Positions 33,240 to 51,083 of a stretch of DNA of 52,278 nucleotides are shown one piece after another. Source of the stretch: Candidatus Poribacteria bacterium. GTDB lineage: Bacteria; Poribacteria; WGA-4E; WGA-3G. The translations under genes and the position numbers were made by a program. The stretch covers positions 1-52,278 of the forward strand of contig JAPOZO010000065.1 of the NCBI GenBank assembly GCA_026706025.1, written 5' to 3'. How positions within the stretch are numbered: position 1 is the first letter of the stretch; every line of letters begins with the position of its first letter. Under the pieces are notes generated by a model. The model saw only the letters and a program-made list of their open reading frames with translations, had not been told where the DNA came from and searched no databases.

Positions 33240-33671
33240 CTCGCTGTTTATATTACATTCTGTAATTACTTATACACTCAGCATCGGTGCGATTAGGAAT
33301 GCAGGTCGCATTTGGGGTTTTTGCTTGGGGTTTTTGCTTGGGTGTTTCTGCGGATTTCTTCGCGTACGCCGCAAAACCGCACCTACCGGGAGGTGAAAGT
33401 GTGTATTTATTTTTGGAATTTACTATAAGTTCTACCTCTTCATCTAACCTCGCTAACTAAAAACCGAGAACTGAATACCTCTACGCAATACTGAAAAAAT
33501 GTGTTATATTCTTGGATTATAACGACTATCTCATTTTTTTTAGCAAATTATGCACCTTTTGCCGTTAAAAATAGTCTCTTTAACAATTGGATGATAACGC
33601 CATTCCGACGCGCGTGACCTAATGACAGTTTTGAAGCATTGGTCCTAAGATGGCCAATCGGAGGAATACGT
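33240..33671. other. Spacer with dispersed GCTTGGGTGTTT repeats
   Basis: No gene is seen. GGTGCGATTAGGAATGC (33285-33301) and CAAAACCGCACCTACCGGG (about 33372-33390) resemble ends and core of MITE-like element A. Between them GGGGTTTTTGCTTGGG occurs twice in tandem (33314-33346), followed by TGTTTCTGCGG. GGAGG (33660-33664) is the ribosome-binding site of the TolB-like gene. No clear sigma70 promoter was found for it. Confidence 0.45.
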
Positions 33672-34688
33672 ATGAGACTAAAGTCGATTTTTTTTATCAC
33701 ACTTTTGATGCTGATATGTGGAACGATGTGTTCGCTTTTTGCCAAAGCACCGACAACGCCGAAAATCCTGTTTACATCCACACGGGACGGCAATCGAGAG
33801 ATCTACGTGATGAACCCAGATGGTTCTGAACAGGTGAACCTGACACAGCACCGCGCAGAGGATCTTCAGGCTGTTTGGTCCCCGACCGGTGAGGAGATTC
33901 TTTTCGTCTCCGATCGCGATGGCATCCGAGACCTCTATCTGATGAATCCAGATGGGTCTAATGTCCGACGCGTCTTCAAAAAATTCGTTTATAGATACTA
34001 TCCGACGTGGTCACCCGATGGTAAACAGATCGCTTACATGCACAAGGCTCATGACCTTCGCGCATCCATTATCTACATTGCCACCTTAGGTAAACCAAAA
34101 GAGGAATCCTTCGTGAATGCTCTGTATCCCGCATGGTCACCAGATAGAACAGAAATTGCTTGTTCAGTGGGTGGTCTTGGTCAAGAGGGCCGACTTGCAC
34201 TTATCAACATCCGCACAGGGGAACGGGAACATCTTCTGCCTGTGAACGAGAAGGGCGGACAATCCTTTCCATCTTGGTCTGCTGCGGGGGACAAACTTGC
34301 CTTTTCTTGGAATAACAATCCGCTGCCGCCGCTTGCAGTTGGTGAACATGTGCCCGACGCATGGCTGGACAAGTTGACAATCTACATTATCAACCGTGAT
34401 GGCACCGGTCTCCGGCAAATTGTTGATGAAGCGGGGCCTAGGGCAATGGCTCCCACATTATCACCAAATGGAGAAGAAGTCCTTTATACACAGGAAATTA
34501 ATGAGAATCTACAAATCTTCAAAGTTGATGTGGACAGTGGCGTTCGGACGCAATTAACACGTATTAAGCGGAATTTTGGAGCCGATTGGTTCGATCCGGC
34601 GTATACCTTGCCGGTATCGCCCCAACCGGCGTTACTAACCACAACATGGGGAGAACTGAAAATGGAGAATCGCGATGGTAGAAAATGA
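33672..34688 (+). CDS. Exported TolB-like beta-propeller protein with WGxLK tail
   Basis: ATG 33672 has GGAGG 7 nt upstream; an upstream in-frame TTG at 33639 is rejected. A signal peptide ends near LFAKA. Propeller blades of the TolB/PD40 type follow: REIYVMNPDGSEQVNLTQ, AVWSPTGEEILFVSDRDG, YPTWSPDGKQIAYMHK. The end, PVSPQPALLTTTWGELK, carries the window's WGxLK tail with a short extra polar stretch. The gene overlaps the next, an ECF sigma factor fusion, by 14 bp, so translation is coupled and the two products probably work together, perhaps as envelope sensor parts. It is the outlying member of the TolB-like family tandemly repeated after 46832. Confidence 0.82.
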   Translation: MRLKSIFFITLLMLICGTMCSLFAKAPTTPKILFTSTRDGNREIYVMNPDGSEQVNLTQHRAEDLQAVWSPTGEEILFVSDRDGIRDLYLMNPDGSNVRRVFKKFVYRYYPTWSPDGKQIAYMHKAHDLRASIIYIATLGKPKEESFVNALYPAWSPDRTEIACSVGGLGQEGRLALINIRTGEREHLLPVNEKGGQSFPSWSAAGDKLAFSWNNNPLPPLAVGEHVPDAWLDKLTIYIINRDGTGLRQIVDEAGPRAMAPTLSPNGEEVLYTQEINENLQIFKVDVDSGVRTQLTRIKRNFGADWFDPAYTLPVSPQPALLTTTWGELKMENRDGRK

Positions 34689-37617
34689 TGTTCAATTAAT
34701 TTACAGAACTTTAGCTGGTGATGAGACGGCGTTCACGGCTTTAGTCCGAAAATACCAAAAGGGCGTTCACGCACTCGCATGGCGGAAAGTTGGCGATTTT
34801 CATGTTGCTGAAGAGATTACACAAGATACCTTCCTCCAAGTCCACAAAAAACTTACGACACTCCAAAACCCGAACCAGTTTGCAGGGTGGTTGTATGTAA
34901 TTACGAATCGGATGTGTATTCGGTGGTTCAAAAATAAAAAACCGACAATGCTATCGCTGGAAAAAATATCCCGCGCAGAAGTAGACAAATCTTCTTATAA
35001 ACGTTATGTATCAGAGCAACGAGAGACAGAAGCAGCGGAACATCGCTACGAAATGGTTAAGGAATTACTGAAAAAACTACCCGAAAGTGAACGTACCGTC
35101 GTAACGCTCCACTATCTCGGCGAGATGACGGCGAAGGAGATTGGCAATTTCTTAGGTGTATCCGCGAACACAATCAAGAGTCGGCTTCAACGCGCCAGAA
35201 AACGTTTACGGGCACAAAACGAAGAATCCTTAGTCCGTGAGGTGCTTGGGAGTTTCCAATTACCTACGAACCTAACCGAGAGCATCATGCGGCAAGCCGC
35301 CGATCTGAAACTAACACCGCCGCAGGTCGGGAAACCGTTGCTACCGTGGGCGGCTTTTGGCACGGCTGTGCTTTTGATAGTTTTGATGCTCGGTACACAT
35401 AACCAGTATCTCGCGCGCTTCCAGCAGCCATATAGTTTTGAAGCAGAATCTGAACCGACGGTTGAAATCGTTGACGCGCCTATCACGCTTCATCTGTTTT
35501 CCAAACCGGCTGTCCGAAATCAGATTGGGCGTGCTGCTACCGCCACTAAAAACATCGGAACTGGCTTACGAACTTCTGAGGCTGCTGTCGCAACCCCAAC
35601 AACGGTGGAGTTGCCCACTACATTCTCGACTGCGCCGTGGACACAGATGGGCGGACCGCCAAGCGGAGTCGTGTTTGACATCTTTGAGACTTCTAACAAA
35701 ACACTCTACCTTAATTCGTCAATAAGTCTCTACAGGTTAACAGCGGATACGACTGTGTGGACACCCGTAAATGTTGATATCTCAATTGAGCAACTCCGTA
35801 TGCCTATGGCAGAGCATGCAGGCACCCTCTATATCGTCGCTGCCAATGAACTATTGGCTTCAACCGATGATGGCGAGACGTGGAACGCATTAGGTGCACG
35901 ACCCGAAGGGCACCCTGCTGAACTCATTGTAATAGATGCAGCAGATGGACGCAGCGCACACGAGCGTGTTGCGATGTATCTTGCCTTTTGGGATAACAGT
36001 ATCTTCCGATCTACCGATGCTGGAAAACGCTGGACACCCGTGAACAACGGATTGACGGGTAGAAAGATTTCCAAACTCGTTGTGATTGAAGGGACGATCT
36101 TCACTGGAACAGACAGAGGGCTCTATCGACTCAATGCAGATGTTTGGGAACAGTTGCCGGTGGATACAACCAGAGCCGTACACGACTTGGTGGCTTTTGA
36201 AGATACTCTCTATGTCGGAACAGGTCGCAAAGTTGAGGAGCGAGTGCGGCTTGGTCTCTCACAACATGCAGGCAGAATTTTCAAATCAAACGATCTTGGA
36301 ACATCGTGGACTGAGATAACGCCTAAAGGCGAACGCTACGACTTCGTATCAGCAGCGGGAATAAGCATAGCAGTTGGAAGCAAAACGGTCTTAGCACGCG
36401 GTCTCAGGCTATTTCGTTCAACCGATAGCGGGGTGACTTGGACCGATCTTGGATTGGATGTGAATTTCTATGCCTATATAGCACGCGACGAAAATACCTT
36501 TTACAAATCCGGAAACTCGGGGGTCTATCGCACGACCGACGGCGGTGAATCGTGGCATCATTTTATGGACGGCATCGTCGGCACCGGAGCACGAGATCTC
36601 GTGGTATTCAATAATAGCTTCTATGTACATGCTAACGGCAATATAGTTCAATCTGCTGATGACGGCGAATCTTGGACACTCGTTCCAGTTGATTACGCCG
36701 AACGAGCATCTGAACCATTAAAAAGAGAACCATCTAACAGCGACTTTGAGCCTGATTCAAAGTTTGTGAGTGTTGACAACATTTTTTATGGTATTGAGTC
36801 CGGCCGAGACAACCTCCGTATCTTTCATTTATCTGGTGATAATACGTTTATCCCTGTTCAAGGCGTACCCGATTTTGGTGGGGGAAATTTGTCTCCTGCG
36901 GTGCTAAAAGAGATTGCGGTAGCACAGGGGATGTCCTTTTCTGGTGATCCTGAAAAGGACCGTAAATTGATGAGTGATTTGTCCTTTTATGAAAACTATG
37001 GGAGAACAGGCGCGTTTGCAGTCAGCGGTGATACATTCTATGTGGAATACAAGCGAAAACTCTTCAAATGGAAACTGGGCGACTCCGAATGGAAAAATAC
37101 CGGTTTAATAGATACTGGAAAACGGTCTGATGACGGTTCAAAAAATGGGTTCAAATTAGCGGTCTCAGCGGAAACCGTCTACGTCGGTAAGCGAGACGGT
37201 AGGCTATTCCAATCGCTTGATGGCGGAAACAGTTGGCGCGACATTACAACCAGCCTACCCCTGCGTTTTACCCAGTTCAAGGAGATCATCTTTGTCGATT
37301 CAACGGCTTACGTCGCGACGGATAGTGGTATTCTCACTTCACAAACCGGCACATACTGGCGTGTCCTGACCGATACCGCGGGCGGGCGTATCGTTATAGA
37401 CAGGTTCGCCGTGAATGGCACCAGTGTTTATGGTGCTGGTGATGCCGGTGTCTATCGTCTGGATGACCGTAAACAATCAGAACAGATTTATCCAAACGTG
37501 CCAGATAGGGTCTTATCTCTCGCTGTTAAGAACGACAAACTTTATATTGTTACCAGACATCACGGGATGTTCCAGATCCCGCTTGCGGAAGCGGGAAATA
37601 ACTTATCTCGTAAATAG
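34675..37617 (+). CDS. Membrane-tethered ECF sigma factor with extracytoplasmic Asp-box propeller
   Basis: The 980-residue fusion starts with an ECF sigma factor: region 2 (residues about 20-85, ALVRKYQKGVHALAWRKV, EITQDTFLQVHKKL) and region 4 (about 130-185, LPESERTVVTLHYLGEMTAK, GVSANTIKSRLQRARKRLR). A hydrophobic segment at about 223-242 (WAAFGTAVLLIVLMLGT) should cross the membrane. The rest, about 325-975, is a BNR/sialidase-like propeller with repeated Asp-boxes: STDDGETW, STDAGKRW, SNDLGTSW, STDSGVTW, TTDGGESW, SADDGESW, SLDGGNSW. No sialidase catalytic residues are evident, so a sensory or binding propeller is likelier. ECF factors with long C-terminal extensions are known in Planctomycetes and relatives. 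How the sigma domain would be released is unknown. Confidence 0.85.
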   Translation: MVENDVQLIYRTLAGDETAFTALVRKYQKGVHALAWRKVGDFHVAEEITQDTFLQVHKKLTTLQNPNQFAGWLYVITNRMCIRWFKNKKPTMLSLEKISRAEVDKSSYKRYVSEQRETEAAEHRYEMVKELLKKLPESERTVVTLHYLGEMTAKEIGNFLGVSANTIKSRLQRARKRLRAQNEESLVREVLGSFQLPTNLTESIMRQAADLKLTPPQVGKPLLPWAAFGTAVLLIVLMLGTHNQYLARFQQPYSFEAESEPTVEIVDAPITLHLFSKPAVRNQIGRAATATKNIGTGLRTSEAAVATPTTVELPTTFSTAPWTQMGGPPSGVVFDIFETSNKTLYLNSSISLYRLTADTTVWTPVNVDISIEQLRMPMAEHAGTLYIVAANELLASTDDGETWNALGARPEGHPAELIVIDAADGRSAHERVAMYLAFWDNSIFRSTDAGKRWTPVNNGLTGRKISKLVVIEGTIFTGTDRGLYRLNADVWEQLPVDTTRAVHDLVAFEDTLYVGTGRKVEERVRLGLSQHAGRIFKSNDLGTSWTEITPKGERYDFVSAAGISIAVGSKTVLARGLRLFRSTDSGVTWTDLGLDVNFYAYIARDENTFYKSGNSGVYRTTDGGESWHHFMDGIVGTGARDLVVFNNSFYVHANGNIVQSADDGESWTLVPVDYAERASEPLKREPSNSDFEPDSKFVSVDNIFYGIESGRDNLRIFHLSGDNTFIPVQGVPDFGGGNLSPAVLKEIAVAQGMSFSGDPEKDRKLMSDLSFYENYGRTGAFAVSGDTFYVEYKRKLFKWKLGDSEWKNTGLIDTGKRSDDGSKNGFKLAVSAETVYVGKRDGRLFQSLDGGNSWRDITTSLPLRFTQFKEIIFVDSTAYVATDSGILTSQTGTYWRVLTDTAGGRIVIDRFAVNGTSVYGAGDAGVYRLDDRKQSEQIYPNVPDRVLSLAVKNDKLYIVTRHHGMFQIPLAEAGNNLSRK

Positions 37618-37750: not shown

Positions 37751-39175
37751 ATGAAACGCTTTCTGATAGTATTTTTGCTATGCGTCACGACAGGCATTCC
37801 TGCTGAAAAAGAAGTCTGTGAGATCAACAGAAACAGCGTTGTAGAACGTCTCGTCAGTCGGTCGTATCCTTCTGTGTTTGGTGTGTGGGATCATGTTTTC
37901 CATAATATCCCACCACCCGGTAACGAATGGGAATGGTCATATTATAAAAAGGTACTATCATACCGAGACCTGGTTTGGCAGAGTAGTTTCCGGAGTCTCA
38001 GTTTTGAAAAGATTACACCGGAAGGCCCCAAGTTGGTTGATGGAGAAGTAGAACATGTCTTGTATGAAAAAAGCCAAATACAGGCTCTAAACCCAGACTT
38101 TATATTTCTCATACCTATTTACTATTATGGTGCGCGTCCGGAAGAGTATCCAGAGGACTGGCCGTATTGGCTCAGAGATAGGAATGGAAATAGAATTAGA
38201 GATGAACCTTGGGCTGAATTGCTTATAGACTACACATATCCCGAAGTGCAAGAACATATGATCGAACAAGCCGTTGCGGTTTCCAAGTGCGGTATCTTCG
38301 ACGGTATTTTCATGGATCTGTGGAGTGAAAGAGCAGAAGCTGCACCGGGGCCGGGGGGAATAGCACATCTGTATCACGGCAATCGTGTGGAGGCACTTGT
38401 TTCACTGGTCAAACGTATCCGTGAAGCCGTCGGCGACGATTTTCTCATTGTTGTCAATACGCGCACTGAGAAAATTCCACGTTCCGCACCGTATGTCAAT
38501 GGTGCGTTCATGGAAACGTGGGATGCAGCCTATCCTCGCGAAAGGCTTATTGAACTTGAGGAAGCGTTGTCCTGGTATGAAGAAAACCTCAAATACCCGC
38601 AAGTCAATTGTTTGGAGGTTGCGATAAATATCAGCGAACCCTGGGACTCTCCAGCTAATCGCCGATTGGCACGCGCCGCCACAACCCTAAGTCTCACACA
38701 TTCTAACGGCTATATTTTAACTCATAGTAAACCAGAGAACCCCCTGTCCTTCTGGTATCCGTTCTTCGATGCGCCTCTCGGTAGTACTGTCGGCGGTAAT
38801 GAAACCCAAGGCGTTCTCTACGAGACCCCCAAAGGTGAAGAAATCGAGGGACTCTTCATCCGGGAGTTCACTAACGGATGGGCGGTCTATAACCGGTCCG
38901 GCACAGCACAGGAGATTGAACTTCCGCAGGAGGTCTCTGGCTGGTCGAGCGGTGTAAAAGGTAAACGCCGGCATACGTTGGCTGATTTGGATGGCGAGAT
39001 TTATTTGAAGGCGGAAGCCCCTCCTACGGCGGATGTTAATGGTGATGGGGTGGTGAATATACAGGATTTGGTGATTGTTGCGAACGCGTTAGGTGATTCC
39101 ACTGGACCCGATCTGAATGGAGATGGCGTTGTCAATATACAGGACTTGGTGATTGTGGCAAATGCTTTTGAATAG
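37751..39175 (+). CDS. Secreted glycosidase-like TIM-barrel protein with dockerin
   Basis: The 474-residue protein has a signal peptide (LIVFLLCVTTG) and a barrel containing DGIFMDLWSE, an acid-rich beta-strand end like the catalytic strand of GHL15-type putative glycoside hydrolases, and IVVNTRTEKI plus FMETWDAAYP farther on. The C-terminus (about 427-474) is a pair of calcium-binding dockerin loops, each DxNGDGVVNIQDLVIVAN. Function inferred: exported polysaccharide-degrading enzyme attached to a cohesin partner, not seen in this window. AGGAGAACGGG precedes ATG 37751. The next two genes encode other dockerin-tagged glycosidase-like proteins. Confidence 0.75.
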   Translation: MKRFLIVFLLCVTTGIPAEKEVCEINRNSVVERLVSRSYPSVFGVWDHVFHNIPPPGNEWEWSYYKKVLSYRDLVWQSSFRSLSFEKITPEGPKLVDGEVEHVLYEKSQIQALNPDFIFLIPIYYYGARPEEYPEDWPYWLRDRNGNRIRDEPWAELLIDYTYPEVQEHMIEQAVAVSKCGIFDGIFMDLWSERAEAAPGPGGIAHLYHGNRVEALVSLVKRIREAVGDDFLIVVNTRTEKIPRSAPYVNGAFMETWDAAYPRERLIELEEALSWYEENLKYPQVNCLEVAINISEPWDSPANRRLARAATTLSLTHSNGYILTHSKPENPLSFWYPFFDAPLGSTVGGNETQGVLYETPKGEEIEGLFIREFTNGWAVYNRSGTAQEIELPQEVSGWSSGVKGKRRHTLADLDGEIYLKAEAPPTADVNGDGVVNIQDLVIVANALGDSTGPDLNGDGVVNIQDLVIVANAFE

Positions 39176-39219: not shown

Positions 39220-41106
39220 ATGAAACATTTCTGTGCTAAATGTGCGTATATCGTGATATTGCAGTTTGTTTTAATCGCTGCTGCGTTAGCGAACACTTTG
39301 ACGCTCGGTGAAGATGGTGAAATTGTCGCTGAGACGGATCGCTATCAGGTGCGGTTTAGAAATGGTAGCGTCATACACGTGCATAACAAACTCACGAAAG
39401 AAACTTATACAGTTTCAGGAAGGCACGATGCAACACTTTCAGGGATGCGTGGGCCCCGGTTCGATGAATCAGAAATAGACCGTGAAGATTACGTGGCACC
39501 TGAGTGGGAAATAGGTGGTGCTGATGCCTTGGAAGTTGAAAAGATTTCACCCTTAACAGCGAAACTGACGGCTCGGTGGCATCAGAGCACACTTATTATG
39601 TGGGTGGCTATTGATGTGCTCACTGGCGATCTAATAATTAGACAGGAGGGTTTTTCTGATCAAACAGGGATTTCCACTATCGGATGGGGTATCGGAAATT
39701 TAGATTATGATCAGGTATCTCCGATTGTGCCAGGGCGCAGCGGGAACATAATGCATGAACAACACACAATGGATTTGTATTGGACGTATCCGGGTTTATG
39801 GGAAGCCCCTCTTGCCGTCGTGCAAGGAACATTGGGGGGATGTTTTGTGATGAGTGAGGATGAAACAGATCAATTTCAAGCACTCGGTCATTGGCCAGAG
39901 AGAAAAAAGCCAAATCTCTTCGCTATTGCTTTTAACACACACAATTTTCTTCCTTTTGAAGAGCATCAACATATTACTTCCGCGATTTGGAGGTTTAATA
40001 CATATAGGGGCGATTGGCAGGTGCCTGCGGAAAGGTATCGTCAAGGGATGGTACAACGAAATGCGTCGCGTGTCGCGCGTCCGCCTGCGTGGGTTAAAGA
40101 TATTCAACTTGTTGTTATGTACTGTTCACTGAATCGTAACTACATTAGAATGTTAGATTTTTTACCACGACAGATCAACCCGCCAAATGTGTTAATTTAC
40201 TGTCGTGGCGGTTGGAGACAGGAACACTTCGGGGCGTTTGTATCTGAGGCAAAGGCTCGCGGGTTTAGGGTAATGGTCTATGAAGGTTTTCCGTTTGTTG
40301 ATCAAGACCACCCGCGTTACGCTGAGTGGGAACCCTATTTCTATCGAGATAGCGATGGAAACATACAGGGATGGGAATTCGAGTTGGGAGGCCCCGCTTA
40401 CATAAATCCTGCAGCTTCAAGTTATAGAGAATATTACGTGCAATTATTGAAAAACGTGCAAGAGACATATAACATTGATGCCTTCCATCTTGACGCTAAC
40501 GGGCTTATCAGAAATCACGCTAAAATTGATGGATTGACGCCTATTCAAGGAAATATGCTTTTACATGAAGAACTTATTGAAGCGATGCCAGGTATTGTTT
40601 TTTCTGGCGAATTTATTCACGCGGTGACAGCTCCGTATGTCGCTTTTTATGGGACCGGGGACAATTTGGATTATGGAGATCCGCACCCGATAACTGATTT
40701 CTTATTTTCGCAGTGGTCCCTTGCTTATAGCGGCACCTTCGCATATTTGGGGGACAGATATAAACCACAAGAACTGGAAATATTGAATGCACATATTAAG
40801 ACGTATAAACAGGTGGCGGTGATTCCGACAATCCGGTATTATTTCGAGCATCATCTGGAAATAGAACAAGCGATTTCTATCCTGCATCGCACCTCTTCAA
40901 ATGTTGAGTTTTGGGAAGCATTAGAACAGATGGTGAATACGCCTCGTGAGGATTTGAACTTTGATGGTGTTGTGAACATTTTGGACCTTGTGATCGTCGC
41001 AAACGCTTTTGGTAGTTCAATAGATTCCGATTTGAAATTTGATTTGAACTTTGATGGTGTTGTGAATATCTTGGACCTTGTGATAGTTACAAACGCTTTG
41101 AATTGA
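39220..41106 (+). CDS. Secreted glycosidase-like protein with dockerin, paralogue 1
   Basis: The 628-residue exported protein has a signal peptide ending near AALA. An N-terminal beta-rich domain (TLTLGEDGEIVAETDRYQV) is followed by a TIM-barrel-like region with VLIYCRGGW, VMVYEGFPFV, INPAASSYREYYV and NIDAFHLDANG, a probable catalytic-acid strand. The C-terminus has two dockerin loops (DLNFDGVVNILDLVIV twice, about 578-628). The fold resembles DUF6259/clan-D-type glycosidases, which is tentative. It is a clear paralogue of the gene at 41457, including the first 14 residues (MKHFCAKCAYI start). It ends in TGA, a real stop here. Confidence 0.72.
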   Translation: MKHFCAKCAYIVILQFVLIAAALANTLTLGEDGEIVAETDRYQVRFRNGSVIHVHNKLTKETYTVSGRHDATLSGMRGPRFDESEIDREDYVAPEWEIGGADALEVEKISPLTAKLTARWHQSTLIMWVAIDVLTGDLIIRQEGFSDQTGISTIGWGIGNLDYDQVSPIVPGRSGNIMHEQHTMDLYWTYPGLWEAPLAVVQGTLGGCFVMSEDETDQFQALGHWPERKKPNLFAIAFNTHNFLPFEEHQHITSAIWRFNTYRGDWQVPAERYRQGMVQRNASRVARPPAWVKDIQLVVMYCSLNRNYIRMLDFLPRQINPPNVLIYCRGGWRQEHFGAFVSEAKARGFRVMVYEGFPFVDQDHPRYAEWEPYFYRDSDGNIQGWEFELGGPAYINPAASSYREYYVQLLKNVQETYNIDAFHLDANGLIRNHAKIDGLTPIQGNMLLHEELIEAMPGIVFSGEFIHAVTAPYVAFYGTGDNLDYGDPHPITDFLFSQWSLAYSGTFAYLGDRYKPQELEILNAHIKTYKQVAVIPTIRYYFEHHLEIEQAISILHRTSSNVEFWEALEQMVNTPREDLNFDGVVNILDLVIVANAFGSSIDSDLKFDLNFDGVVNILDLVIVTNALN

Positions 41107-41456: not shown

Positions 41457-43319
41457 ATGAAACATTTCTGTGCGAAATGTGCGTATATCCTGATATGTCA
41501 GTTTGTTTTCGTTACGGTTGCTTTTGCAAACACTTTGATGGTTGATGAAGCAGGCAATGTCCTCGCGGAGACGGACCGCTATTTGGCACGTTTTGAAAAT
41601 GGTGTGCTGACGGACTTTCACAACAAACTCACCAACGAAACCTATACGCAAGGCGAAAGCGAAGCACTCACACGGATGAAAGCCGGACGCAGTCTAACCA
41701 TACACGAGATTACACCAGAGATAAAAAGACTCTCACCCCTTGAATGTCAACTGATCTACCGCGATACTTGGAGTGTACCAACTGACAATAACGTGGAACT
41801 CCATCTGTTTATCAGTATAGACGCAGAAACAAGCGATCTTCTTATTCGGCAAAAAGCTGTTTCAGAAACCGGTGGTATTGAACGGGTTATGTGGGGGTTC
41901 GCAAATCTTTCAGAGACAGTTGTGGATGTCATCGCGCCCGTTACAGGCGGTCAAATCCTTGTCAATCCTGATAGATACTACTATCCGCGTAAGTGGGAGA
42001 CCCCGCTTGCTATCCTTCAAGGACAACGCGGTGGTGTTTTCGTCCACAGCGACGATACACAGTTCCGCTTCAAAACACTCGAATATGAATCCGAAGGTGG
42101 TGATGATTTCGCGCTCAACTTTTGGGAAGTGCCCCATGCCCCTTTTGAGCAGGTGAAACAGATCACGACTGCCACATGGCGGTTGAACGCCTATCAAGGC
42201 GATTGGCAAGTTCCAGCACTTCTGTATAGGGAATGGATGCAGAAGGCATTGCAGCCCCCTGATCGCACAAAGATGCCCGCATGGATCAATGATATTGAAG
42301 TAGTCATCTACTACTCAAACATAGACCTCAATGTCTTAACACCGCTCAGCCAACTCGTGGATCCTGAACAAACATTAATATTTGTGCATCAATGGCGGCA
42401 CGGCGGACACGACGGGGATTTGCCGAATTATACACCCGACGCGGTGAAACCGGAGTTCGCTGACTTCGTCAAGGAGGCACACGGCTATGGTTTTAAGGTG
42501 ATGGCGCACGTGAATATGTTGGGGGTTTCAGAGTATCATCCGCTTTACGCGAAATTTGAGAAATATCAAGTCCGCGACCCGTACACGGGTGAAAAAACAG
42601 GTTGGCATTGGAAAATCCGTCACACAAATCCAGACAGTCACGCTTTTATTAATCCGGCTTCATCTGACTATAGAAAAATGTTTGTGGATATCTTAAAAAA
42701 TCTGTGGGAACGCTACCAAGTTGATGCTTTTCATCTCGATATTAGTTCACCTGTCTATAACGATAAGAATGGACTTATTGACGGGTTAACATACGCAGAA
42801 GGTAATATCTTGCTCCATCAAGAAATCAGAGACGCTATACCCGGCATCGTTCTCGGTGGTGAAGGTCTCAATGATGTCACCTTTATACATGAAAGTTTCG
42901 CAAAACGCTTTCGGATACCAGCAACAGAGATCCCGCATCCGGTTAGTTCCCTTCTGTTTTCGCCCTATACAATATCCTATGGCCGTGCCATACCCAACCC
43001 AGATCATGCACTTGACGAATACCAAGAATTTCTCCATGAATATGAAGTCTGGGATGTTTTACTTACCATTCGGATTTATGAGGTAGGCGATTTGGTAGAG
43101 CAAGACCGGCCTGAAACTTTTAAGCTATTTGAACTCGCAAGAGAACGACAAAATTATAGATTTGGAGACGTAAATGGCGATGGCATCGTCAACATCCTTG
43201 ACCTCACACTCGTCTCACAGCAAATCGGAACGCTGAATCCGAGCAATCGACGCGTAGATGTGAACAAGGATGGTGTCGTCAATATCCTCGATCTTGTGCT
43301 GGTAGCGAATGCGTTTTAG
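41457..43319 (+). CDS. Secreted glycosidase-like protein with dockerin, paralogue 2
   Basis: The 620-residue paralogue of the gene at 39220 starts with the same MKHFCAKCAYI signal peptide. It shares the N-terminal beta domain (TLMVDEAGNVLAETDRYLA), the barrel segments VMAHVNMLGVSEYHPLYA and INPASSDYRKMFVDILKN, and the acid strand QVDAFHLDISS. The dockerin pair reads DVNGDGIVNILDL and DVNKDGVVNILDL (about 571-620). The barrel diverges more than the signal peptide, suggesting a different glycan target. ATG 41457 and its leader (GAAAGAAGATGAAGTT) equal those of the paralogue, though element C sits 18 bp upstream. Confidence 0.72.
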   Translation: MKHFCAKCAYILICQFVFVTVAFANTLMVDEAGNVLAETDRYLARFENGVLTDFHNKLTNETYTQGESEALTRMKAGRSLTIHEITPEIKRLSPLECQLIYRDTWSVPTDNNVELHLFISIDAETSDLLIRQKAVSETGGIERVMWGFANLSETVVDVIAPVTGGQILVNPDRYYYPRKWETPLAILQGQRGGVFVHSDDTQFRFKTLEYESEGGDDFALNFWEVPHAPFEQVKQITTATWRLNAYQGDWQVPALLYREWMQKALQPPDRTKMPAWINDIEVVIYYSNIDLNVLTPLSQLVDPEQTLIFVHQWRHGGHDGDLPNYTPDAVKPEFADFVKEAHGYGFKVMAHVNMLGVSEYHPLYAKFEKYQVRDPYTGEKTGWHWKIRHTNPDSHAFINPASSDYRKMFVDILKNLWERYQVDAFHLDISSPVYNDKNGLIDGLTYAEGNILLHQEIRDAIPGIVLGGEGLNDVTFIHESFAKRFRIPATEIPHPVSSLLFSPYTISYGRAIPNPDHALDEYQEFLHEYEVWDVLLTIRIYEVGDLVEQDRPETFKLFELARERQNYRFGDVNGDGIVNILDLTLVSQQIGTLNPSNRRVDVNKDGVVNILDLVLVANAF

Positions 43320-43362: not shown

Positions 43363-44109
43363 ATGTTGATGAAATTTCTAATCATTGTAACAGTCCTGTT
43401 TTTATCTCCTTTATCTGTTTGGGCAGGCACATTTCTGGAAACCTTTGACGGCAAAGATTTGGACGAATGGGAGCAAATTTGGGCGATTAAGGGACCTGCT
43501 GTCTGGGAGATTGTTGATGGTGAACTGCACGCAGAAAGTCGTGAGGCGTATATTCATTTACTGACAACTGGGGACACCACGTGGGAAGACTACACGATGG
43601 AACTTGATGTCAAACCTCTGAAAAAACATGGTATTGGCGGTATCATGATCGCTGTGCGAGTTGACGGAACTTGGTTAGTTTACTGCAGTATTTCTGATCC
43701 GGTGATTATAAGGGGGGATGATCCGCCGGTTCAAGAAAGACAAATAGGTTGTTACGCTGCCGGTTTGCACCTGCCACCACATGCCACCCTTTTCGAAGAA
43801 CTGCACCCACTTTTAAGATTAAACAGATGGTCCCATCTGAAATTAAGTGTTGAAGGCGATATCTTTACCTTCTGGCTTAATGGTGAGCAGATTATGGCAC
43901 CGACGAAACTTCTAATTTTCAAGCAGATTGATGTCTTTGCGGATTTTCCCGATTTTCAGACTGGCGGTGTCGGTTTCGGTCTCTGGAACTATACGGCAAT
44001 TTTTGATAACATCACTGTCACAGGGGATAGCGTTCCAAACAGCGGTGATTTCGCCGTAACGCCCCAAGCAAAATTGGCGACAACCTGGGGACACTTGAAA
44101 AGATTTTAG
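43363..44109 (+). CDS. LamG/DUF1080-like secreted protein 1 of 4 (type A), WGxLK tail
   Basis: The 248-residue protein has a signal peptide (ending SVWA) and one concanavalin-type beta-sandwich: GTFLETFDGKDLDEWEQIW, WEIVDGELHAES, WEDYTMELDVKPLKKHG, HLKLSVEGDIFTFWLNGEQ, IFDNITVTG. Such modules bind glycans; a few DUF1080 members hydrolyse 3-keto-disaccharides, but no catalytic residue can be assigned. The tail FAVTPQAKLATTWGHLKRF carries the WGxLK motif. Closest relative is the fourth gene of the array, not its neighbour. Confidence 0.78.
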   Translation: MLMKFLIIVTVLFLSPLSVWAGTFLETFDGKDLDEWEQIWAIKGPAVWEIVDGELHAESREAYIHLLTTGDTTWEDYTMELDVKPLKKHGIGGIMIAVRVDGTWLVYCSISDPVIIRGDDPPVQERQIGCYAAGLHLPPHATLFEELHPLLRLNRWSHLKLSVEGDIFTFWLNGEQIMAPTKLLIFKQIDVFADFPDFQTGGVGFGLWNYTAIFDNITVTGDSVPNSGDFAVTPQAKLATTWGHLKRF

Positions 44110-44143
44110 TGTCAATAGTGATAGCATTGGAAGGAGAATTATT

Positions 44144-44890
44144 GTGAAATCTGTGATGATTGTAGTGACCCTTTTCCTCCTGCCTCTTTCTGTTTGGGCA
44201 GGCACATTCCTGGATACCTTTGAGGACGGAAATTTGGACGGATGGCGGGAACTGGTTCCGTGGGACAGGGAACCGGGGTCTTGGGAGATTATTGCTGGCG
44301 GACTTCACGGGTCAGTTGATGATGGGTATCCGCGTCTATTCATAACCGGGGATGACACGTGGAAGGATTATACAGTCGAATTTGATGTCAGACCCCTTAA
44401 AAAACATGGGCGTCCAACGATCGCCATAGCGGCGCGAATTCAGGAGAAATGGTTCGTACGGTGCAGTCTTATGGAACCAGTCGTTGTATTGCCTGGGGGT
44501 GGCAATGCGCCAGAAAAAGGATGGGTGTTCTGTTCGGCTGGCAACTTGCACCGTGAAAAAGCCGATCTGCTTTTCTTTGAGCCGCATCCACTTTTAAAAT
44601 TATTCAGATGGGCACATTTCAAGTTAAGCGTTGAAGGCAGTATTTTCACCTTCTGGATTAATGGTGAACAGGTGATGGAGCCTACGGAACTTCGTATTGT
44701 TAGAAACCGCGATGGCTTTGAGGACTTCCCTGAGTTTCAGACCGGTGGTGTCGGTATCGGTCTCTCGAATTATACGGCGCGCTTTGATAACTTTACTGTT
44801 ACAGGCGATAGCATTCCCGACAGCGGCGCGTTCGCCGTAACGCCTCAAGGAAAACTGGCGACAACCTGGGGACACTTGAAAAGATTTTAG
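44144..44890 (+). CDS. LamG/DUF1080-like secreted protein 2 of 4 (type B), WGxLK tail
   Basis: GTG start with AAGGAG 8 nt upstream; the signal peptide ends SVWA. The sandwich reads GTFLDTFEDGNLDGWRELV, WKDYTVEFDVRPLKKHG, FKLSVEGSIFTFWINGEQV. It is almost a duplicate of the third gene (same DGWRE and VPWDR entry). Ends FAVTPQGKLATTWGHLKRF. The 34-bp spacer before it (GATAGCATTGGAAGGAGAA) is itself repeated before genes 3 and 4, so the unit of duplication was gene plus leader. Confidence 0.78.
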   Translation: MKSVMIVVTLFLLPLSVWAGTFLDTFEDGNLDGWRELVPWDREPGSWEIIAGGLHGSVDDGYPRLFITGDDTWKDYTVEFDVRPLKKHGRPTIAIAARIQEKWFVRCSLMEPVVVLPGGGNAPEKGWVFCSAGNLHREKADLLFFEPHPLLKLFRWAHFKLSVEGSIFTFWINGEQVMEPTELRIVRNRDGFEDFPEFQTGGVGIGLSNYTARFDNFTVTGDSIPDSGAFAVTPQGKLATTWGHLKRF

Positions 44891-44924
44891 TGTCAACGGC
44901 GATAGCATTGAAAGGAGAATTATT

Positions 44925-45674
44925 GTGAAATCTGTATCTATTATAGCACTCCTTTTTTTCTTGCCCTTTTCTGTGTGGGCAGGCACATTTCTGGATACCT
45001 TTGAAGACGGTAATTTGGACGGATGGCGCGAAGTTGTTCCGTGGGATAGAGTTCCGGGGTCTTGGGAGGTTGTTGCGGGTGGACTCCACGGGACGGGTGA
45101 TGATATATCTCTGCGTCTATTCACAACTGGGAATGATACATGGACGGATTACACAGTCGAATTTGATGTCAGGCTCCTTAAAAGAAGACCCGGGACCCCA
45201 CGTATCTCGATTGCGGCGCGGGTTCAGGAGAAATGGATAGTGCAGTGCATTATGATGGAGCCAGTAATCGTGTTGCCTGCGGGTGCGAATGTGCCAGAAA
45301 AAGGATGGGTGAATTGTTACGCTGGCAGTTTGAACGATGGAAAAGTTAAGGCACTTCTCTTGGAACCGCATCCACCTTTAAAATTATTCAGATGGGTACA
45401 TCTAAAGTTAAGTGCTGAAGGCAATATCTTCACCTTCTGGATTAATGATGAACAGGTTATGGAACCTACGGAACTACGTATTCGCAGAGACCGTGAAGGT
45501 TTTGAGGACTTTCCTGAGTTTCAGACCGGGGGTGTCGGTATCGGTCTCGCAAATTGTACGGCGCGCTTTGATAACTTTACTGTTACAGGTGATAGCATTC
45601 CCGACAGCGGCGCGTTCGCCGTAACGTCTCAGGGAAAACTTGCGACAACTTGGGGAAACTTGAAAAGATTTTAA
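44925..45674 (+). CDS. LamG/DUF1080-like secreted protein 3 of 4 (type B), WGxLK tail
   Basis: GTG start with AAAGGAG upstream. Signal peptide to SVWA, then GTFLDTFEDGNLDGWREVV, WTDYTVEFDVRLLKRRPG and LKLSAEGNIFTFWINDEQV. The insertion of two residues (RRPGTP) and the metal-free look of the surface loops separate it from gene 2. Ends FAVTSQGKLATTWGNLKRF. Confidence 0.78.
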   Translation: MKSVSIIALLFFLPFSVWAGTFLDTFEDGNLDGWREVVPWDRVPGSWEVVAGGLHGTGDDISLRLFTTGNDTWTDYTVEFDVRLLKRRPGTPRISIAARVQEKWIVQCIMMEPVIVLPAGANVPEKGWVNCYAGSLNDGKVKALLLEPHPPLKLFRWVHLKLSAEGNIFTFWINDEQVMEPTELRIRRDREGFEDFPEFQTGGVGIGLANCTARFDNFTVTGDSIPDSGAFAVTSQGKLATTWGNLKRF

Positions 45675-45705
45675 CGTCAATAGTGATAGCATTGAAAGAA
45701 GAATT

Positions 45706-46452
45706 ATGATGAAATCTGTGATGATTGTAGCGATCCTTTTCTTTCTCACCTTCTCTGTGTGGGCAGGCACCTTTTTGGAAACCTTTGATGGCAAAGCGTT
45801 GGAGGGATGGCAGGAAATTTGGGTGGATAAAGGACCCGCTGTCTGGGAGATTGTTGATGATGAACTGCACGCAGAAAGTCGTGAAGCGTATACGCATTTA
45901 CTGACAACTGGGGATAGCACGTGGGAAGACTACACTATGGAACTTGATGTCAAACCCCTAAAAAAACACGGTATTGGCGGTATCTCAATCGCTGTGCGGG
46001 TTGACGGAACTTGGTTAGTTTACTGCAGTATTTTTGATCCGGTGATTATAAGGGGTGATGATCCTCCGGTTCAAGAGGAACGAATAGGGTGTTACGCTAC
46101 CGGTTTGAAACCGCTACGTGCACATGCCATCCTTATCTCTGAACTGCACCCACTTTTAAGATTAAACAGATGGTACCATCTGAAGTTAAGCGTTGAAGGC
46201 GATATTTTTACCTTCTGGATTAATGATGAGCAGGTTATGGCACCGACGCAACTTCAAATCTTCAAGGGGATTGATGTCTTTGCTGATTTTCCTGATTTTC
46301 AAACTGGGGGTGTCGGTTTTGGGCTTTGGAACTACACGGCAATCTTTGATAACATCACTGTCACGGGTGAGAGCGTTCCCAATAGCGGTGATTTCGCCGT
46401 AACGCCCCAAGCAAAACTGGCGACGACGTGGGGACAGTTGAAGAAATTTTAG
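45706..46452 (+). CDS. LamG/DUF1080-like secreted protein 4 of 4 (type A), WGxLK tail
   Basis: Start ATG 45706 (an ATG also at 45709). Signal peptide to SVWA, then GTFLETFDGKALEGWQEIW, WEIVDDELHAES and WEDYTMELDVKPLKKHG, nearly identical to gene 1 of the array. Ends FAVTPQAKLATTWGQLKKF. The order A-B-B-A cannot come from simple repeated unequal crossing of neighbours; it needs two duplication steps or gene conversion. Confidence 0.78.
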   Translation: MMKSVMIVAILFFLTFSVWAGTFLETFDGKALEGWQEIWVDKGPAVWEIVDDELHAESREAYTHLLTTGDSTWEDYTMELDVKPLKKHGIGGISIAVRVDGTWLVYCSIFDPVIIRGDDPPVQEERIGCYATGLKPLRAHAILISELHPLLRLNRWYHLKLSVEGDIFTFWINDEQVMAPTQLQIFKGIDVFADFPDFQTGGVGFGLWNYTAIFDNITVTGESVPNSGDFAVTPQAKLATTWGQLKKF

Positions 46453-46774: not shown

Positions 46775-46803
46775 TTGACATGTGTCAAGTACCCAACTAT
46801 TTC
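46775..46803 (+). promoter_or_regulatory. Promoter with overlapping palindrome before the TolB array
   Basis: TTGACA (46775-46780), a 17-bp spacer and TATTTC (46798-46803) form a plausible sigma70 promoter just 28 bp before ATG 46832. The -35 box is half of a palindrome TTGACA-TG-TGTCAA (46775-46788), a possible operator for a dimeric repressor of the downstream array. Confidence 0.45.
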
Positions 46804-46831
46804 CATACTGAATTGCTTGGAGGATATAAAA

Positions 46832-47815
46832 ATGAAAATAAAACGGACCTATACAGCCTTTGGGATAACATTCTTGTGGAGTCTATTTCTTTTGAGCATA
46901 AATGCTTCGGCGGATACGTATATCTCCTTTAGTTCCAACCGATCAGGGAACTATGACATTTATGTCATGGATATATTTGGAAACAATCTACGCAACTTGA
47001 CGAATCACCCCGCTTATGACGGTGACGTAACATGGTCACCCGACGGACGTTCTTTCGCTTTTGTGTCGAACCGCGATGGACACCGCGAGATCTACATTAT
47101 GGATGTCGATGGGATAGCAACTCGACGATTGACAAATCATCCAGAGGAGGCGGCCCAACCGGACTGGTCGCCTGATGGAAACTGGATCGTATTCACGTCG
47201 GACAGAGAGAGCAGAGAAAACTATGATATCTACAAAATAGGTGTCAATGGTAGAAACCTACAACGACTCACTAAACATAAAGCATACGATTCGGCACCGG
47301 CGTGGTCGCCAGATGGGAAGCAGCTTGCCTTCTCTTCCTATCGCGATGGAAGTATGGGTATCTATGTGATGAATGCCGACGGAAAACATCTCGAGCGCGT
47401 TAAACAGGTAGAGGCAGGCGGAGTATCTCCGAGCTGGTCGCCTGATGGGAAACAGCTGGCTTATTCTTCAAGTTTTGCGGGCATTGGTATCTACGTTATG
47501 GATATGCGTCAGAAAGATGTGCGCCGCGTGACACCTATGGGCATTTGGAGTCGGCACCCAACGTGGTCACCCGATGGTGATTGGATTGCCTACGATATGG
47601 AACCTGAAAAGCAGTGGGGCAACCCGAAGGAGTTGGATCAAAACATTTATATCGTCAGTGCTGACGGCGGTAGACCTCGCCAAATCACAGTGGATGCGGG
47701 AAAAGATCGTGATCCTGCGTGGGTCCCGGAGGCATTTTTCTCAGTATCCCCGAGCACGGAGAAGCAGACAACGTTATGGGGTAGACTCAAGCAAGCAGAA
47801 AACACTGTCAAGTAA
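46832..47815 (+). CDS. TolB-like beta-propeller protein, array member 1
   Basis: ATG 46832 has GGAGG (46819-46823); a longer in-frame reading from 46775 would run through the promoter and is rejected. A signal peptide (ending NASA) precedes TolB/PD40 blades with strong periodicity: YDIYVMDIFGNNLRNLTNHP, VTWSPDGRSFAFVSNRDG, PDWSPDGNWIVFTSDRE, PAWSPDGKQLAFSSYRDG. It ends FSVSPSTEKQTTLWGRLKQA, the WGxLK tail. Classic TolB partners (Pal, TolA) are not nearby; the propeller is probably a surface or periplasmic binding module. Confidence 0.82.
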   Translation: MKIKRTYTAFGITFLWSLFLLSINASADTYISFSSNRSGNYDIYVMDIFGNNLRNLTNHPAYDGDVTWSPDGRSFAFVSNRDGHREIYIMDVDGIATRRLTNHPEEAAQPDWSPDGNWIVFTSDRESRENYDIYKIGVNGRNLQRLTKHKAYDSAPAWSPDGKQLAFSSYRDGSMGIYVMNADGKHLERVKQVEAGGVSPSWSPDGKQLAYSSSFAGIGIYVMDMRQKDVRRVTPMGIWSRHPTWSPDGDWIAYDMEPEKQWGNPKELDQNIYIVSADGGRPRQITVDAGKDRDPAWVPEAFFSVSPSTEKQTTLWGRLKQAENTVK

Positions 47816-47828
47816 CCACTGTATTATA

Positions 47829-48002
47829 ACCCAAGTTGCTACTAACAGATTTTGCCTACTTCGGAAAGGTTTTTTGTCTTTTTTCCCACCCCGTGGGGGG
47901 TTTTTGCTTGGGTGTTTCTTCAATATATCTATAGAAAGCAAGATATTCAAATACCTGCACTCCAGCGGAGTGCTATGTGTATAAAAAGGTAGCAACTTGG
48001 GT
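47829..48002. mobile_element. MITE-like element D, 174 bp, with 7-bp target duplication
   Basis: Perfect 14-bp terminal inverted repeats ACCCAAGTTGCTAC (47829-47842) and GTAGCAACTTGGGT (47989-48002), flanked by direct repeats TATTATA (47822-47828 and 48003-48009). Equivalent spacers of the array (e.g. CTGCATTATAGGAGG at 52086-52100) show the unfilled site. The interior carries GTTTTTGCTTGGGTGTTT (47900-47917) and a GC hairpin followed by CTATGTGTATA. It sits 11 bp before a ribosome-binding region and splits member 1 from member 2. Confidence 0.82.
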
Positions 48003-48019
48003 TATTATAGGAGAAATTT

Positions 48020-48979
48020 ATGAATATAAAGCGCACGCGAACTTATATGATATTAGGAATGGCATTATTGCTAAGTATGCGTCTATTCGCCAACAGCGGC
48101 TGGGCGGATGAACGTGAGGTCCTCTCTTTTGTTTCTGTAGAAGACAGAACGCGTCCCATTATTCTTATGGATACCCAAGGGAAGATCCTCCAAGAACTCG
48201 TTATCCCGGACTTGACACAACTGTCTATGAGTTGGTCTCCTGATGGACGTTCATTTACCTATCATGCCATTCACAATCAAGTACCTAATCTTGACTTTGA
48301 CATTTATGTGATGGATGTGGAAACACAGACAAGCCGTCGATTGACGCTTGATGATGGTTTGGATATATGGCCCGCTTGGGCTCCGAATGGGAAGTGGATT
48401 TCGTTCGCCTCAAACCGCGCCGGAACGTCCAACCTTTATAGAATGGATGTAGATGGCGGAAATTTAATGAAATTGACGGATGGGATAGGCTACGATAAAA
48501 CCGCTTGGTCTCCAGACAGTCAATGGATCGCCTTTACTTCAAGAGCCGCCCTTTTTGTGATGACTGCTGAAGGAAAAAAATTGAAGAGGCTCACGGGGAA
48601 TGCACACGGCGTTGACTGCACATGGTCACTGGATGGCGAAAAGATTGCTTTCTCCGCAAATAACGGAATTTTCAGCATTGGTGTCAATGGAAAGAATTTG
48701 CGCCAACTCACACAACTCGATCAAAGGGTATGGTCTCTTACGTGGTCGCCGAGTGGGGAATGGATCGCCTATCGTTTGACAGACGTATTCGATGATTTGG
48801 TCGTCGGGGTCGTAAACACAGTAGATAGTAAGCGGGGGGGAGTGCTTGAGGCGACGCGAGGATTAAAACCTCTTTATCTTGATTGGGTCCCGGAGGCATT
48901 TTTCTCAGTATCCCCGAGCACGGAGAAGCAGACAACGTTATGGGGTAGACTCAAGCAGACAGAGAATACTTCTAAGTAA
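48020..48979 (+). CDS. TolB-like beta-propeller protein, array member 2
   Basis: The 319-residue product has a signal peptide (ending NSGWA), then blades including MSWSPDGRSFTYHAI, PAWAPNGKWISFASNRAG, TAWSPDSQWIAFTSRA. The tail FSVSPSTEKQTTLWGRLKQT equals that of member 1 nearly letter for letter, while the N-terminal blades are diverged, hinting at gene conversion of the 3' ends. AGGAGA is upstream, just beyond element D. Confidence 0.8.
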   Translation: MNIKRTRTYMILGMALLLSMRLFANSGWADEREVLSFVSVEDRTRPIILMDTQGKILQELVIPDLTQLSMSWSPDGRSFTYHAIHNQVPNLDFDIYVMDVETQTSRRLTLDDGLDIWPAWAPNGKWISFASNRAGTSNLYRMDVDGGNLMKLTDGIGYDKTAWSPDSQWIAFTSRAALFVMTAEGKKLKRLTGNAHGVDCTWSLDGEKIAFSANNGIFSIGVNGKNLRQLTQLDQRVWSLTWSPSGEWIAYRLTDVFDDLVVGVVNTVDSKRGGVLEATRGLKPLYLDWVPEAFFSVSPSTEKQTTLWGRLKQTENTSK

Positions 48980-49002
48980 CCGCCGTGTTACAGGAGGAAT
49001 TT

Positions 49003-50052
49003 ATGTATATGAAACGCTTGCGATTTTATGTGGTATTAGGGATGGCGTTGTTGCTAAGTGGCAGCCTATTCGTCAACAGCGCGTGGGCGGCAGCGGCTGA
49101 GATCATTTCTTTTCTCCCCAGAGGGAACGGAGAGCGTTCCATCCATTTCATAGATACCCAGGGCAAACTCCTTCAAGGATTGATGGTGGGTCCTGGACGT
49201 ATAAGCAGCTTCAGCTGGTCCCCTGATGGGCATTCGATTGCCCACGGTTCTAATCAGGATGGGGATCCTGATATTTATGTGAGGGATGTGAGAACAAATG
49301 TAGCACGTCAGTTGACGTTCCACGATAGTCGAGATATATGGCCCGCTTGGTCGCCGAATGGGAAGTGGATCGCATTCATCTCCGAACGTGACGGGGAGAT
49401 GGACATCTACAGAATGGATGCAGATGGCGCAAATGTGAAGCGGCTGACGAGCCGGGGCGACTGCAAAAGACCGGCTTGGTCGCCAGACAGCCAATCGATT
49501 GCCTTTAGTGCATCCAAGAAAGATGAAGAAATAGGATCCGATATTTATGTCATGAGTGCTGAAGGAAAAGGGTTGAGGCGGCTCGCAGATACATCTGCCA
49601 GTGTCTGCGCATGGTCGCCGGATGGTAAAGAGATCGCTTTTATTCCACCTGGAGATGCTGTCGGGGGTACTGCGCTCTTCAGTATTGACATAAATGGCAA
49701 AAACATGCGTCAACTCACCCGGTTGTATAAAGGGTGGACATTAATCACTTCACCGGTATGGTCCCCGCGTGGCAAATGGATTGCCTATATTTTGACTCAA
49801 ATGCCAGAAGCATTGGTCGAAAGATTGCTCGGAGGGGAGCGGATTCCGGCAGATGAAGTTTCCGCTAACGCGGTCCTCTGTATCGCCAATACAGAAGACG
49901 TTGGGGGTGGGGAACCCATCGAAATGCCAAGAGGATTAGTACCTGGTCATCTTCAGTGGATGCCGGAGGAATTTCTCTCTGTATCCCCGAGTGCGGAGAA
50001 GCAGATAACATTTTGGGGGGTGCTCAAGCAGACCGAGAATATTTCTAAGTAA
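49003..50052 (+). CDS. TolB-like beta-propeller protein, array member 3
   Basis: ATG 49003 follows AGGAGG (48992-48997). The 349-residue product has a signal peptide (ending NSAWA), blades FSWSPDGHSIAHGSNQDG, PAWSPNGKWIAFISERDG and PAWSPDSQSIAFSASK, and an extra insert in the last blades (RLLGGERIPADEVSANAV). Ends LSVSPSAEKQITFWGVLKQT. The 23-bp spacer to the next gene repeats the one before it. Confidence 0.8.
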   Translation: MYMKRLRFYVVLGMALLLSGSLFVNSAWAAAAEIISFLPRGNGERSIHFIDTQGKLLQGLMVGPGRISSFSWSPDGHSIAHGSNQDGDPDIYVRDVRTNVARQLTFHDSRDIWPAWSPNGKWIAFISERDGEMDIYRMDADGANVKRLTSRGDCKRPAWSPDSQSIAFSASKKDEEIGSDIYVMSAEGKGLRRLADTSASVCAWSPDGKEIAFIPPGDAVGGTALFSIDINGKNMRQLTRLYKGWTLITSPVWSPRGKWIAYILTQMPEALVERLLGGERIPADEVSANAVLCIANTEDVGGGEPIEMPRGLVPGHLQWMPEEFLSVSPSAEKQITFWGVLKQTENISK

Positions 50053-50075
50053 CTGCCGCGTTACAGGAGGAATTT

Positions 50076-51059: not shown

Positions 51060-51083
51060 CTGCCGCGTTATAGGAGGGATTTG

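Follow-up and report, generated by a model that had tools for sequence, protein, structure and literature searches.

We analysed a stretch of 52,278 nucleotides from a Candidatus Poribacteria bacterium, a sponge symbiont (assembly GCA_026706025.1, contig JAPOZO010000065.1, positions 1 to 52,278; hereafter the window), and focused on a one-piece sigma factor gene at 34675..37617 on the forward strand, where all features of the locus lie. The gene starts with ATG, has GGAGA immediately 5' and forms an open reading frame (ORF) of 980 amino acids (aa). Its product carries sigma region 2 (34741..34941; residues 23-89, Sigma70_r2, PF04542), sigma region 4 (35050..35214; residues 126-180, PF08281/PF04545, Sigma70_r4_2 at 126-178 with E 7.5e-16), an anchor module without a Pfam family that is common to its anchored paralogues (35230..35544; residues about 186-290), a predicted membrane helix (35338..35418; residues 222-248) and a GH74-like double propeller (35635..37599; residues about 321-975). 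Both the Pfam cut-offs and the NCBIfam sigma70-ECF superfamily cut-off were passed, marking the N-terminal part as a sigma factor of the extracytoplasmic function (ECF) type, and its solved relatives in profile and structure searches were SigW, SigE and AlgU. These matches agree with a preliminary description of the locus, which had placed sigma regions 2 and 4 on this chain. Upstream, a gene for a TolB-like PD40 propeller protein (33672..34688; signal-like N-terminus, ATG after GGAGG, tail LLTTTWGELK) overlaps the sigma gene by 14 bases, and an ECF-type promoter-like site, ATTATGCACCTTTTGCCGTTAAAAATAGTCTCTTTAACAA (33547..33586), precedes this operon with a position weight matrix (PWM) score of 22.9.

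The strongest hydrophobic window of the protein lies at residue 222 (19-residue Kyte-Doolittle mean 2.20; runner-up elsewhere 1.27), in line with the single hydrophobic segment described earlier, and the segment was kept in 45/45 aligned Poribacteria sequences. AlphaFold2 modelled residues 228-248 as a helix (pLDDT about 45-55) and placed two confident short helices (184-192 and 200-210) between the sigma part and the membrane, within the roughly 40 residues that separate region 4 from the membrane helix. The anchor module was conserved on both sides of the helix irrespective of the C-terminal domain, and the outer juxtamembrane stretch FQxPYSFxA..KPxxRNQxG was likewise retained regardless of the domain that follows. 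A known anti-sigma domain in the 186-290 module was considered and found no Pfam support, the commonest match being DUF3094 (5/38 members, best E 0.005). No anti-sigma Pfam family was detected in the 980-aa protein or in 38 anchor modules, although an anti-sigma fold of a new kind may be present; the Pfam search of the protein gave no zf-HC2 match, and in residues 185-225 of the aligned relatives no Cys or His was invariant or close to it. We infer that the sigma part is cytoplasmic, that one helix crosses the inner membrane and that the propeller lies outside.

The C-terminal part of the protein gave Sortilin-Vps10/BNR-type Pfam matches. Asp-boxes of the form [ST]xDxGxxW occur at residues 396, 446, 538, 582, 620, 660 and 847, exactly the seven that had been given as a minimum, compared with a mean of 0.02 in shuffled propeller sequences. 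The AlphaFold2 model of the propeller reached a mean pLDDT of 82 and a pTM of 0.77, and GH74 xyloglucanases ranked first both in the profile search (2cn3, E 6e-18) and in the structure searches (2cn3, E 6.5e-25; 6p2m, Z 25.4 over 559 residues at 5.3 Å). In the VIA structure list, the GH74 rows had Z 23-25 and spanned both propellers, whereas unrelated WD40-type propellers had Z 21-22. The sequence and model searches together place the double seven-bladed propeller fold of GH74 here, over about 670 aa. An active glycosidase is disfavoured, however, since the tested catalytic position is not kept: in the profile alignment, which reaches the catalytic position of the first propeller, the first catalytic Asp position of GH74 was Asp in 0/34 aligned relatives. 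The aligned position is Ala in 2cn3, which we take to be the D70A mutant, the catalytic Asp of Xgh74A presumably being D70. Because none of these relatives has the Asp, the propeller is probably a binder rather than an enzyme. It has the fold of a glycan-active family, and its predicted ligand is probably a glycan.

A scan of genome contigs for relatives returned 46 loci, all from Poribacteria. The preliminary description had raised the prospect that the two halves might be separate in relatives; instead, the fusion was intact in 9/9 of the closest loci (L101-L109; 72-94% identity over residues 1-318), with proteins of 975-983 residues. In the sigma part, the ratios of nonsynonymous to synonymous substitution rates (dN/dS) against these nine were 0.07-0.17, compared with 0.21-0.46 in the anchor and 0.29-0.39 in the propeller, indicating that all parts are under purifying selection, strongest in the sigma part, where regions 2 and 4 are well conserved, and weaker in the propeller. 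Copies of the GH74-like fusion were 35-50% identical to each other, which marks the fusion as old; the dN/dS values show it to be selected.

The protein belongs to a large clade. In the host genome (6.27 Mb, 103 contigs) we found 57 clade members with at least 47% identity to residues 1-190, read from fetched stretches and including four ORFs of 150-268 aa; members cut by stretch ends were judged on their visible part. About 39 of the 57 share the same anchor module (40 were scored with the helix, L088:12553-13248 being doubtful); L098 has the helix and was left out of set A3 because the part after it differs. The genome contains 8 HisKA matches and 7 zf-HC2 frames by comparison. A profile of the anchor module found 40 copies here; a genome of the same genus assembled as one contig gave 56, and fragmentary assembly therefore does not account for the copy number. 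The module was present in 9/9 tested genomes of the same family (1-56 copies), in 4/6 others of the order (1-2 copies) and in 0/6 tested genomes outside the order. A wider sigma query matched 84/84 genomes of the phylum, its weak matches including ordinary ECFs.

What follows the sigma part varies widely. The Asp-box group comprises 22 members, 20 with and 2 without the helix. Behind the helix we also found WD40 and PD40 propellers, Kelch repeats, leucine-rich repeats with or without the glycosidase-like GHL15 domain, M16-type and M61-type peptidase domains, transglutaminase and redoxin. Members without the helix carry a DNA polymerase beta clamp, PurC, HTH_20, a PnrA-type binding protein, prolyl oligopeptidase, WD40 and further redoxin and M61 copies. 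The clearly cytoplasmic parts (clamp, PurC and HTH) are all without the helix, which fits a helix that sets the compartment, although some cases are less clear-cut.

Several members deserve separate mention. A tandem array on contig C56 (35-78 kb, L061-L063) holds ten one-piece sigma genes and a fragment, with differing C-terminal parts. An anchored sigma at L081:9753-12419 (+) has outer leucine-rich repeats and the same GHL15 as the dockerin protein beside the window sigma; the members in L080 and the second one in L081 share its C-terminal end type. At L075:14842-16569 (-), with relatives in L204-L209, a clade sigma is joined to an entire DNA polymerase III beta clamp, a fusion that is full-length in 9/14 Poribacteria genomes alongside separate ordinary clamps. 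A sigma-PurC fusion (L075:5532-7040, -) occurred in this genome alone among 11 searched; its PurC part shares 81-90% identity with the ordinary PurC in related species and 88% with another copy in the same genome, and may be a recent capture or a chimera. Divergent ECF sigmas are fused to FtsZ at L087:9693-10877 (-) and to FtsZ, PHP and DNA polymerase III alpha domains in a 1344-aa frame at L100:6696-10727 (+), which may be real or an assembly fault.

Upstream of the clade genes we found a common motif, ATTATGCA[AC]C..TTT followed after about 14-16 bases by GTC with a T/A-rich flank (ATTATGCAMC..TTT..GTC). It was derived from 7-mers and then refined, and was scored by a leave-one-out PWM with a threshold of 10 within 250 bp; a fixed-word bipartite search returned mostly T-runs and was discarded. 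Scores above 10 were obtained before 42/57 clade genes compared with 1/285 shuffled sequences, and before 25/45 clade genes in other species, one of the 46 loci having been dropped for too little upstream DNA. A strict pattern gave 31 genome matches (30 places, as two sites overlap) versus 0 for the reversed pattern. In orthologues with the TolB-like gene (L102, L105, L107 and L108), matching sites lie 1128-1164 bp upstream of the sigma gene, and in those without it (L101 and L106) about 100 bp upstream; the figures within 4 kb give distance alone, irrespective of whether the genes in between form one operon. Lesser matches in the window, at 31508, 32965 and 39217, scored 13-16. A candidate for a promoter shared with its own operon, for which the preliminary description had proposed to look, is the ECF-type motif before the TolB-like/sigma operon and most clade genes. 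The arrangement resembles an autoregulated ECF operon, and the window sigma would recognise this motif.

Strict sites also occur at L188, L191, L195, L196, L199 and L200, before genes without a clade sigma nearby that encode secreted proteins, membrane transporters and a dockerin protein. Two strict sites away from clade genes (C52 and C59) precede dockerin genes.

Downstream of the sigma gene lie three genes for dockerin-bearing proteins: a GHL15 glycosidase-like protein (37751..39175), which is a probable target and has relatives downstream in L104 and L105, a glycosidase-like protein (39220..41106) and a DUF6259 glycosidase-like protein (41457..43319). They are followed by four genes for 3-keto-disaccharide-hydrolase-like secreted proteins (43363..46452, starting at 43363, 44144, 44925 and 45706), relatives of which follow the sigma gene in L101, L103, L105, L106 and L109, and then by five consecutive genes for PD40 propeller proteins on the same strand (46775-52082). 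Across the genome, 14/75 dockerin matches lie within 8 kb of anchored members on the same strand (2.8 expected; clusters 5/42, p 0.02), as do 11/28 PF06439 matches (1.1 expected; clusters 5/19, p 6e-4); some sigma end coordinates in this count were rounded from open-frame lengths. Unanchored members showed no excess of dockerin or PF06439 genes within the same distance and strand.

A separate anti-sigma next door was sought and none was found among the window neighbours scanned. Each of the 7 zf-HC2 frames in the genome adjoins a divergent ECF sigma, as expected from the earlier remark that an ECF factor is usually held by a separate anti-sigma, and no zf-HC2 anti-sigma adjoins any clade member; the clade sigmas must therefore be controlled otherwise. 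Site-2-protease-like enzymes, also proposed earlier as worth a search, are encoded as RseP-type M50 proteases; the one scanned has PDZ domains and adjoins dxr.

A C-terminal tail of the type KLATTWGxLKRF was found in 30/946 ORFs of at least 120 aa, most of which begin with a signal-like N-terminus. In every case it lay no more than 8 residues from the end, with no internal occurrences and 0 matches to the reversed motif. It occurs in the window at 34653-34688, 44080-44109, 44860-44890, 45645-45674 and 46425-46452, and also in L061, L066, L068, L071, L085, L092, L094-L098, L191 and L197, and looks like a sorting tag.

We consider it reasonably probable that the protein is a membrane-anchored single-chain ECF sigma receptor, in which ligand binding by the outer propeller would free the sigma part or shift its pose, so that it transcribes the operon that encodes it. 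The ligand, for which a glycan is the best candidate, would be met by the propeller, possibly together with the TolB-like protein of the same operon. Thereupon the anchor module would be cut by an outer protease followed by an RseP-type site-2 protease, or would change shape. The sigma part would transcribe from ATTATGCAMC..TTT..GTC promoters, its own operon first, and the neighbouring dockerin and 3-keto-disaccharide-hydrolase genes might be expressed next, by read-through or from similar promoters. Computation shows the single chain, the hydrophobic helix, the fold, the selection and conservation, the motif with its placement and the gene neighbourhood; the topology, the ligand class, the proteolysis, the reading of this motif by this sigma and the extent of the regulon are predictions. 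The preliminary description had called the protein a one-protein signalling device; a sensor-like part, a membrane helix and a sigma factor are indeed on one chain, while the release by proteolysis that it offered stays a prediction. It had overlooked the approximately 39 anchored paralogues, the TolB-like gene and ECF-type promoter upstream, and the single-chain membrane sigmas already known.

Several observations weigh against the receptor reading. The membrane helix was modelled at low confidence, and the charge bias across it is weak, with mean K+R of 2.3 vs 1.8 in 15-residue flanks and 6.5 vs 4.4 in 45-residue flanks (39 members). Some parts that are possibly extracytoplasmic (PnrA, redoxin and M61) also occur on helix-less members, and nothing links the RseP-type proteases to the one-piece sigmas. 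The motif scored above 10 before 15/335 non-clade ORFs, some of them first genes of clade operons and at least one of them a clade gene that a second, overlapping stretch had also covered. No motif above 20 precedes the window dockerin genes, the operon site being the only one above 20, and 61/75 dockerin matches lie away from anchored sigmas. A strict site is also found upstream of a divergent ECF at C56, and another ECF could read the motif.

The main rival, which we regard as unlikely but worth keeping in view, is that the sigma acts while still tethered, the ligand re-posing it so that RNA polymerase and promoter are recruited to the membrane without cleavage. One-component regulators of the ToxR/CadC type offer a parallel. 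The stretch between region 4 and the helix would be long enough for this, and cleavage is our deduction. However, the conserved FQxPYSFxA..KPxxRNQxG is better explained by a processing or docking site common to these proteins than by a simple linker, and passages of PMC8999054 describe the known single-chain membrane sigmas as presumably released. We favour ligand-triggered cleavage.

It is improbable that the clade is a self-expression device, a promiscuous or mobile cassette of sigma and promoter that attaches itself to unrelated genes at their 5' ends and drives them. Fusions to unrelated domains such as the beta clamp and PurC, the restriction of the PurC fusion to one genome among 11 with a PurC part 88-90% identical to ordinary PurC, the tandem arrays and the common motif before most copies would all suit a cassette. 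The anchored group nevertheless retains the helix and both juxtamembrane parts together, the GH74-like fusion is old and selected, and co-location with dockerin and PF06439 genes is confined to anchored members. Equally improbable is a separate master ECF sigma that reads the motif while the tethered sigma parts are inactive or mere decoys: the genome has other ECFs, one of them with a strict site upstream, but the low dN/dS and conserved regions 2 and 4 of the sigma part argue against it, as does a -10 flank type that differs between sigma subclades (16/27 vs 1/15, Fisher p 0.001), a split that fits sigma-promoter matching and could also stem from shared ancestry.

Bacterial signalling is usually described in terms of two-component systems, one-component regulators and sigma/anti-sigma pairs. 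This lineage seems to have given up the two-protein sigma circuit, repeatedly, in favour of single chains whose outer part alone changes. We suggest, tentatively and with somewhat less than even confidence, that the ECF sigma serves this branch of Poribacteria as a general-purpose output module, welded to dozens of sensor and effector domains inside and outside the cell under one shared promoter style, and, with one-piece sigmas outnumbering histidine kinases and sigma/anti-sigma pairs in this genome, forms its main signal-to-gene route. With its single anchor, uniform promoter style and range of sensors, the family lends itself to asking how a sigma stays silent without an anti-sigma and whether dozens of sensors feed one regulon. 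It is also relevant to how symbionts of sponges perceive glycans from host or diet, and single-gene receptors for engineering could follow.

Single-chain membrane sigmas are already known from ECF52 and IutY, according to the relevant passages of PMC8999054, and ECF52, with ECF48 and ECF53, is among the closest known systems. As described in the sections on it in PMC5826349 and PMC8999054, ECF52 (SCO4117 of Streptomyces coelicolor) has an ECF sigma, a membrane region and an outer carbohydrate-binding module on one chain, with proteolytic release and positive autoregulation proposed; it has a zinc-finger anti-sigma domain between sigma and membrane region and a proline-rich extension, and ECF52 is described as exclusive to Actinobacteria. 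The window protein has the membrane helix and an outer part sharing its fold with a glycan-active family, and differs in lacking zf-HC2, in its GH74-like double propeller and in having dozens of paralogues whose outer parts differ. IutY (ECF243, Pseudomonas putida), in the account given in PMC8999054, joins a sigma and a membrane-bound regulator in a single polypeptide, which Prc and RseP process, and carries the fused anti-sigma of an iron system, whereas the window protein has no known anti-sigma family. ECF57 has WD40-like repeats C-terminal to its ECF sigma and so shares propeller-type repeats, and the passage of PMC8999054 describing it mentions no membrane helix. The SigI/RsgI systems of Clostridium thermocellum, as presented in parts of PMC4711584 and PMC12203970, are paralogous sigma systems with differing outer glycan-binding parts, one of them a nearly inactive GH10, with autoregulation, dockerin-bearing targets and RseP cleavage. 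There, sigma and anti-sigma are two proteins, whereas here one chain with an ECF sigma does duty, and no separate membrane anti-sigma like RsgI was found among the neighbours scanned. The GH74 xyloglucanases (2cn3 and others) share the double propeller by sequence and structure, to which the window protein adds a sigma and from which its relatives depart at the catalytic Asp. The outer propellers of BT4673-type hybrid two-component sensors of Bacteroides were among the fold matches (3ott and 3va6), more weakly (TM-score about 0.32 to 0.33), and the output there is a kinase rather than a sigma. The titles and abstract openings of the open-licence papers on Poribacteria sigma factors and membrane-anchored sigmas contained no report of this family, and no open-licence paper linking Poribacteria with dockerin was found. 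None of ECF52, IutY and SigI/RsgI is a full match, and this family seems to be new, as do its anchor and its scale, when compared with the descriptions of the known ECF groups.

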